Source: Synechococcus sp. RCC307 (lineage in GTDB: Bacteria; Cyanobacteriota; Cyanobacteriia; PCC-6307; Cyanobiaceae). Taken from it: a stretch of 64,000 nucleotides of DNA. The DNA lies in NCBI GenBank assembly GCA_000063525.1, contig CT978603.1, positions 305,105 to 369,104 of the forward strand, given 5' to 3'. Of the stretch, positions 52,803 to 53,896 are shown in pieces (position 1 is the stretch's first letter; every line of letters begins with the position of its first letter). Below the pieces are notes generated by a model. It saw only the letters and a list, made by a program, of their open reading frames with translations, was not told the DNA's origin and made no database searches. The position numbers were made by a program, and so were the translations under genes.

Positions 52803-53600
52803 ATGCGGGCACAGTTTCAGGCTCAAGTCCAGGCGCCCTTGCCGAGTGCTCCTGAGCTAGTGCTCGTCACCGATCTCGATGGCACCTTGCTGGCCGGCGA
52901 GCCAGCGGATCGTCGACGCCTCTATCGCTGGCTGAGTGATTGCCGTGAGCAGGTGCTGCACATCTTTGCCACGGGCCGTGAACGCAGTTCAGTGGCTGAG
53001 CTGTTTCAGGCGCCTGAGCATGCTCTGCTCAGGCAGCCCCACCTGGTTATCAGTGATGTGGGCTGCACGGTGGCTTGCGGCGACAGCCTCGAGCTGGTGC
53101 CGTTGGTGGTTGATGACATCGAACGTCAGTGGCAACCATTCGCTGAGCAGGTGTTGGCGCTGACCCAAGGGCAGCCGGGGTTGTCCCCCCAGCCAGTGTG
53201 CGCGGAACGGCGCCATGCCTTTGATGCCGATCCAGAGCTGATGGATCCAGGCCTGATGCAACGTCTGCGCCAGGTGGGTGTGGATTGTGTGTTCTCCGAT
53301 GGCCGCTACCTCGACGTTCTGCCCCCAGGGGTGAACAAGGGTTCGACGCTGCAACGCGTGCTGGAGTTGCTGGAGTTACAGCAGGTGCCTGTGGTCGTGG
53401 CAGGGGACACCCTCAATGATTTGGGTCTTTTTCAGACCGGTTATGCCGGTGTGATGGTGGGCAACGCCGAAGCTCCCCTGCTGGAGTGGCTGCCCCAATT
53501 GCCCAATACCTACCTGGCCAACGGCGCTGGTTGCAGCGGCATCCTCGAAGGGCTGGAGCATTTCGGCTTTGGCGGGCTGCTGGCTCAAGGGGCCTCGTGA
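52803..53600 (+). CDS. HAD-family sugar phosphatase (S6PP-like)
   Basis: A 265-residue HAD-IIB protein. Motif I is VLVTDLDGTLLAG, motif II is IFATGRERSS, the Lys is in VNKGSTLQRV and motif IV is VVVAGDTLNDLGLF, as in sucrose-phosphate or mannosyl-phosphoglycerate phosphatases. It may make a compatible solute. ATG at 52803 (ATG/GTG nearby possible). GTG of the SemiSWEET overlaps its stop, so both are coupled. Confidence 0.85.
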   Translation: MRAQFQAQVQAPLPSAPELVLVTDLDGTLLAGEPADRRRLYRWLSDCREQVLHIFATGRERSSVAELFQAPEHALLRQPHLVISDVGCTVACGDSLELVPLVVDDIERQWQPFAEQVLALTQGQPGLSPQPVCAERRHAFDADPELMDPGLMQRLRQVGVDCVFSDGRYLDVLPPGVNKGSTLQRVLELLELQQVPVVVAGDTLNDLGLFQTGYAGVMVGNAEAPLLEWLPQLPNTYLANGAGCSGILEGLEHFGFGGLLAQGAS

Positions 53601-53896
53601 GCGACAGCGCCCAGTGGTTGGGCTTTACGGCAGCAGCCCTCACCACCAGCAGTTTTTTCCCGCAAGCCTTGAAAACCTTGCGGACCAATGAAACCGCAGG
53701 GATCTCGCTGCGGATGTACTTGCTCTTCACCTCAGGCGTCAGTGCCTGGGCGGTCTATGGATTGTGGGTTCAAGACTGGCCCGTGTTTTGGGCCAATGTT
53801 GTGACGCTGCTTCCAGCAGCAGCGGTCTTGGAGAGAAAAGTGAGGGCGAGCCTGTCTTCAGCCGGCAATCGACAACGCCAGGGCGAAAACCGCTGA
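53597..53896 (+). CDS. SemiSWEET sugar transporter (PQ-loop)
   Basis: A 99-residue protein with three hydrophobic helices (LGFTAAALTTSSFFPQALKTL, SLRMYLLFTSGVSAWAVYGLW, FWANVVTLLPAAAVLE). The PQ motif in FFPQALKT marks the SemiSWEET family, which works as a dimer and equilibrates sugars across a membrane. The GTGA overlap with the HAD phosphatase suggests a shared sugar or solute pathway. Confidence 0.88.
   Translation: MSDSAQWLGFTAAALTTSSFFPQALKTLRTNETAGISLRMYLLFTSGVSAWAVYGLWVQDWPVFWANVVTLLPAAAVLERKVRASLSSAGNRQRQGENR

Follow-up and report, generated by a model that had tools for sequence, protein, structure and literature searches.

A tightly coupled, lineage-limited gene pair of a HAD-IIB phosphatase and a SemiSWEET in Synechococcus sp. 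RCC307 and related picocyanobacteria

In Synechococcus sp. RCC307 the gene of a HAD-IIB sugar-phosphate phosphatase (P0001) overlaps that of a SemiSWEET (P0002), and we report that the two form a real, tightly coupled two-gene unit that is limited to one lineage of picocyanobacteria. Our leading explanation, which we hold tentatively, is that the pair works as a translationally coupled unit in the RCC307-type lineage, P0001 most likely hydrolysing sucrose-6-phosphate and the SemiSWEET acting as a passive sugar carrier. The window is a stretch of 64,000 nucleotides in a genome that consists of a single contig of 2,224,914 bp, and it was set against whole-genome searches of 151 sampled genomes of the family (Cyanobiaceae), some of them incomplete.

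The gene pair and its distribution

Both open reading frames are present as the initial annotation had described them, with a GTGA overlap between the S6PP-type phosphatase and the SemiSWEET (Table 1). Its title had called them fused, which is right insofar as the reading frames overlap, but the products are two separate proteins. P0001 matches the Pfam family S6PP (PF05116) with 153.7 bits (cut-off 20.3) and P0002 the SemiSWEET_2 model (NF037968) with 94.1 bits (cut-off 80); residues 7-82 of the 99 in P0002 align with solved SemiSWEETs (4x5m, E 5.2e-17), one of them covering residues 7-79. In this alignment and in scoring over the SemiSWEET_2 cut-off, P0002 resembles known carriers (4x5m, 4qnc and the Bradyrhizobium BjSemiSWEET). 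What sets it apart is that it is coupled to such a sugar phosphatase, an arrangement absent from the gene contexts given in the excerpted part of a review of SemiSWEET gene contexts (PMC5972207). The promoter scan gave 0 sites (0.2 expected) and terminator-like sites numbered 5 against 2.2 expected; none was used in the interpretation.

Table 1. Coordinates of the gene pair in the window and of permease/SemiSWEET loci in other genomes
Feature	Position	Strand	Evidence
HAD-IIB sugar-phosphate phosphatase P0001, 265 aa, ATG start	52803..53600	+	S6PP family match, motifs, structure model
SemiSWEET P0002, 99 aa, GTG start	53597..53896	+	family models, alignment to solved SemiSWEETs
GTGA overlap, SemiSWEET start codon and phosphatase stop codon	53597..53600	+	sequence
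Permease/SemiSWEET locus	L040:2720-3532		
Permease/SemiSWEET locus	L189:2824-3753		
Permease/SemiSWEET locus	L191:3808-4572		

Orthologues of the phosphatase were found in 42 of the 151 family genomes at E 1e-30, and a SemiSWEET in 111 at E 1e-6. All 42 phosphatase loci were read. The SemiSWEET directly follows the phosphatase in eight of them, from three genera (G000-G005, G036 and G071); a convergent hrpB-type gene fills its slot in 29, none of the usual neighbourhood genes occurs in the stretch read in four, and the contig ends at the slot in the remaining one. Here and below, neighbour genes such as xseA, hrpB, glpD, gghA, sqdB and the like bear presumed names. The junction is tight in all eight paired genomes, ranging from a 4-bp overlap to a 1-bp gap: it is an NTGA 4-bp overlap in all six genomes of the genus that were read, TGATG in G036 and TGAgATG (the 1-bp gap) in G071, which argues that the overlap is more than chance. 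The phosphatases of the paired genomes form one clade (100/98 in the first tree, from which G002 was left out as a near-copy), which most likely reflects a single origin of the pair.

The initial annotation had raised the question of whether the two genes stay together across genomes. A pair conserved throughout the picocyanobacteria is ruled out by adjacency in 8 of the 42 carriers, but within the RCC307-type lineage the genes have indeed been kept together, tightly so in every paired genome. Elsewhere among the loci read, a frame change close to the start breaks the G028 orthologue (L034:5393-6235) in two and leaves motif I apart from the remainder. The picocyanobacterial xseA-phosphatase-hrpB locus also turned up on a contig labelled as a MAG of Bifidobacterium breve (L209), probably through a binning or labelling error.

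The SemiSWEET apart from the phosphatase

In three genomes of the genus to which G071 belongs (g67; G106, G130 and G149), the SemiSWEET lies between xseA and 54070-type genes and the phosphatase is gone. No SPS was found in these three at E 1e-100; G071 has both SPS and the phosphatase. Since the SemiSWEET is in place without either of them, the carrier is independent of the phosphatase and of sucrose synthesis. It is also present in 9/9 SPS-less family genomes that are at least 90% complete and, together with its occurrence in 111 of the 151 genomes, this rules out the SemiSWEET as a general part of sucrose synthesis.

It is quite possible, though in our view still doubtful, that the SemiSWEET is an unrelated neighbour, that the overlap reflects a compact genome and that P0001 acts on some other substrate or on a broad range of them (several glycosyl-polyol phosphates). 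Such an explanation would account for the three genomes in which the carrier has stayed in place after loss of the phosphatase, and for the neighbours of the carrier elsewhere, namely a convergent 7TM-HD gene (three of the loci tested) or a pseudouridine synthase (one). It would also suit G133 and G148, which keep the phosphatase gene and in which no SPS, GgpS or StpA was found. What it accommodates poorly is the junction, which has remained tight in 8/8 genomes of three genera despite divergence of their SemiSWEET proteins to about 61% identity.

In three Cyanobium-like genomes an ABC-transporter permease (PF00528) is encoded 0.5-2.2 kb upstream of the SemiSWEET on the same strand, with opposite-strand ORFs between the two (Table 1).

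The phosphatase and canonical sucrose-phosphatase

The HAD catalytic residues of P0001 are intact (DLDGT, ATGRE, K179 and GDTLND) and, judged by them, the protein is an Asp-nucleophile HAD-IIB phosphatase. The assignment to the S6PP family made in the initial annotation stands with the PF05116 match, but an identity as canonical sucrose-phosphatase (SPP) is ruled out by score, signature residues and trees. Against the SPP equivalog model (TIGR01485), P0001 reaches 100.8 bits, under the cut-off of 183.65, compared with 302, 245 and 200 bits for three SPP-type proteins from this dataset. The SPP-type signature of TGRS, Lys116 and GDSGND, in which TGRS and GDSGND follow published rules (PMC9971976, PMC5113954), is replaced by TGRE, Arg and GDTLND in P0001; P0001 and its orthologues mostly have TGR[D/E], Arg and GD[T/S]LND. 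Arabidopsis SPP2 with the substitution S54A, at the Ser of TGRS, had no detectable activity (PMC5113954), and P0001 has Glu at this position. In the trees, the SPP rows stand apart from the P0001 clade with 100/99 (first) and 100/100 (second). Rows were hand-chosen for both trees and seven SPP-type rows were dropped as too short; 11 further rows were removed before the first tree as near-copies or odd, and the second included 20 of the 54 outside loci described below.

A structure model of P0001 built from alignment A2 (38 sequences) has a mean pLDDT of 95.1 and was used instead of a single-sequence model (mean pLDDT 34.8). Its nearest solved structure is Synechocystis SPP (1s2o; Z 25.3, 30% identity), followed by a match at Z 20.8; the fold-search rows shown held no glucosylglycerol-phosphate phosphatase entry, and such a search cannot separate SPP from GgpP. 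With Synechocystis SPP (slr0953), P0001 shares the HAD-IIB fold, the catalytic Asp, Asp, Thr, Lys and GDxxxD, and two of the three glucose-ring contacts, Gln107 and Asn189, the third, Lys116, being Arg; it may substitute for the SPP domain that SPS lacks. It differs from that enzyme in its low identity, in a score under the cut-off, in TGRE/Arg/GDTLND and in belonging to a separate clade. SPP-like proteins of unknown function have also been described (PMC9971976); P0001 has the motif I Gly of this class without its motif III Pro, and membership was rejected.

Kinship with GgpS-linked phosphatases

Of the 291 genomes of the class that were sampled, close relatives of P0001 (144-185 bits; next match 99.5) occur in 11 that lie outside the family. 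Six of these have GgpS, and in 6/6 the phosphatase gene adjoins ggpS on the same strand; four of the six also have StpA. From a search for relatives across GTDB the best 80 of at least 457 were kept, with the 54 nearest non-picocyanobacterial loci. At 52 of these 54 the phosphatase is fused to GgpS (17) or near it, being directly upstream in 34, with one further case, L254, where GgpS is part of a separate fusion gene 2.3 kb upstream. The other two have no GgpS in view: L257 stops 107 bases past the match, while L236 is a genuine miss. Family models confirmed the GgpS fusion in 5/5 proteins tested. The search patterns came from a 12-sequence alignment, of which four members are from the GgpS-linked clade or close to it, and may favour that clade; a pattern-free search within the class also ranks it first.

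In the second tree, with the SPPs on the other side, the GgpS-linked rows group together (97/92) and the picocyanobacterial phosphatase clade is sister to all of them. The tree thus shows no descent of the picocyanobacterial clade from within those rows. On the evidence of the tree, the P0001 clade is sister to the HAD-type glucosylglycerol-phosphate phosphatases and lies outside the GgpS-linked clade. The GgpS-linked relatives are of the GgpPS kind, for example that of Marinobacter; HAD-type GgpP is known as the N-terminal domain of GgpPS (PMC10873239). P0001 resembles HAD-type GgpP in the sister position, in 34-45% identity and in the diagnostic residues shared with the GgpS-linked clade (DLDGT, TGRE/D, Arg137 and GDTLND), and differs in being neither fused to GgpS nor near it and in occurring mostly in genomes without GgpS (21 of the 31 carriers at least 90% complete).

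We nevertheless consider it unlikely that P0001 is a second HAD (GgpPS)-type glucosylglycerol-3-phosphate phosphatase working with a GgpS encoded elsewhere. The sister position, the linkage to GgpS at nearly all of the nearest outside loci kept and in every outside-family cyanobacterium having both genes, and the shared DLDGT, mostly TGR[D/E], Arg for Lys116 and GD[T/S]LND would all agree with such a role, as would G109, which has GgpS and a P0001-type gene without StpA. Yet the picocyanobacterial clade falls outside the GgpS-linked rows, and GgpS occurred within the stretch read at 0/26 picocyanobacterial phosphatase loci. The absence of GgpS from most carriers and the presence of StpA in four of the six cyanobacteria with neighbouring genes also weigh against it. 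In RCC307 itself ggpS lies ~860 kb from the P0001 gene on the same contig, and the genes of GgpS and StpA are 5.6 kb apart in that other genome region, so that glucosylglycerol is already provided for. Within the family, P0001 and GgpS were not associated (Fisher p 0.27), which ruled out the former as a marker of the latter.

Three further arrangements were seen. Flavihumibacter sp. ZG627 (L254:2603-5711) has a GgpPS-type fusion gene and, after it, a second HAD of that kind as a gene of its own. In one cyanobacterial family (loci L037 and L182; sqdB is a presumed name), G197 has the order phosphatase-ggpS-sqdB, and in G054, of another genus of that family, no ggpS was found, the phosphatase adjoins sqdB, and an intact SPP domain is present on SPS elsewhere.

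Sucrose and glucosylglycerol genes in the carrier genomes

The SPS frame of RCC307 spans 503 aa, has a tail of 63 aa and carries no SPP domain. SPS tails were read in the carriers: 13 have a short-tailed SPS, and in the other 24 whose SPS could be read to the end, 26/26 SPP domains lack the first Asp of GDxxxD, as aligned, with 12 of the 26 (one type) also lacking the nucleophile. Degenerate fused SPP domains occur as well in family genomes without the phosphatase gene, seven with the same SPS type and four with the other, and the dead-looking domains of these 11 non-carriers mean that such domains do not single out P0001. The fused SPP domains of the family have degenerated in two ways, by loss of the GDxxxD Asp or by this loss plus a change of the nucleophile Asp to Ala (L082-L147).

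Five relatives (G001, G002, G003, G036 and G071; 82-96% complete) have an SPS without an SPP domain and have kept the phosphatase; neither GgpS nor StpA was found in them at the search thresholds. The 94 family genomes that are at least 90% complete include 31 carriers, 29 with SPS. At this completeness, 85/85 SPS genomes have a P0001-type gene, StpA or one of two other stand-alone S6PP types, compared with 2/9 SPS-less genomes for the same four phosphatase kinds; the S300 and S9 phosphatase sets are at least as large as counted, among the matches listed. The 85 divide into 10 with both the phosphatase and StpA, 19 with the phosphatase only, 45 with StpA only and 11 with neither, so that the two tend not to occur together (odds ratio 0.13, p 4e-5, uncorrected for kinship among the genomes).

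Four carriers gave no SPS match at E 1e-100 (G128, G132, G133 and G148); two are less than 90% complete, and G133 and G148 are 99% complete. Conversely, 15 family genomes have short SPS frames without the phosphatase, and 14 of these have StpA; another phosphatase can therefore serve. For this count the status of the SPS domain was judged by open-frame length (under 640), to which G113 (contig-cut, with a degenerate domain), G136 (contig-cut) and G100 (long frame, short tail) are exceptions.

A separate S6PP-type clade of ~300 aa (S300) is encoded beside or near a second SPS type at L098, L103, L109, L112, L121, L137 and L138.

Discussion

Tentatively, we take sucrose-6-phosphate to be the likeliest substrate of P0001, because its genome has an SPS without SPP domain together with GgpS and StpA, and because of the five relatives and the counts in 94 genomes. 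The single-domain SPS would make sucrose-6-phosphate, and P0001 would remove the phosphate as the last step of sucrose synthesis. The SemiSWEET, presumably with sucrose as its substrate, would be the passive sugar carrier, and the overlapping genes may lead the cell to make phosphatase and carrier together. A possible benefit is that sucrose could be let out after a drop in salinity. Coupled production and release of sucrose by the pair is a plausible hypothesis.

Several observations nonetheless count against sucrose: the TIGR01485 score, TGRE/Arg/GDTLND and the Glu in place of Ser; the nearest relatives outside the family, which go with GgpS and not with SPS; the gene kept in G133 and G148, where no SPS was found; and the degenerate SPP domains in genomes without the gene, StpA in 14 of the 15 short-SPS non-carriers, and the persistence of the SemiSWEET alone. 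A more detailed history, in which a GgpP-branch HAD-IIB phosphatase was taken over as sucrose (or dual sucrose/glucosylglycerol) phosphatase where SPS had lost a working SPP domain, and was then coupled to the SemiSWEET in one lineage as a make-and-release unit, strikes us as improbable as a whole.

Picocyanobacteria accumulate sucrose (PMC4390843, PMC6753628), and among the SPS proteins of the family that were read, the SPP domain is either absent or degenerate. P0001 is a concrete candidate, in the lineages of RCC307 type and Cyanobium-like ones, for the enzyme that removes the phosphate. Should the SemiSWEET move sucrose, this carrier could offer a native route by which fixed carbon leaves the cell; Synechococcus elongatus has served as host for efflux through BjSemiSWEET (PMC5972207). 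According to the excerpted part of one survey, spp (CK_00002483) and sps were present in just two of the marine isolates, MINOS11 and RCC307, and spp in 42/67 freshwater strains (PMC9361551). From its spread, CK_00002483 is presumably the P0001 cluster, and the label 'spp' would then hide a different ancestry. We found neither this GgpP-side kinship nor the gene pair described in open-licence PMC, which for the pair agrees with the remark in the initial annotation that no standard description of it was known.

A parallel case may be StpA/GgpP (TIGR02399), since ggpP has been speculated to act as SPP in Prochlorococcus (PMC11505929). That protein is of another family and is a separate gene in the RCC307 genome; P0001 had no StpA-type Salt_tol_Pase match among the 4 Pfam and 25 NCBIfam families listed. 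StpA is encoded at G000:C1:1226747-1227895 and is found in 76 other family genomes. It tracks SPS rather than GgpS, in that SPS is present in 55/55 StpA genomes at least 90% complete and GgpS is missing from 19 of these, which fits the published speculation that StpA serves as SPP in picocyanobacteria.
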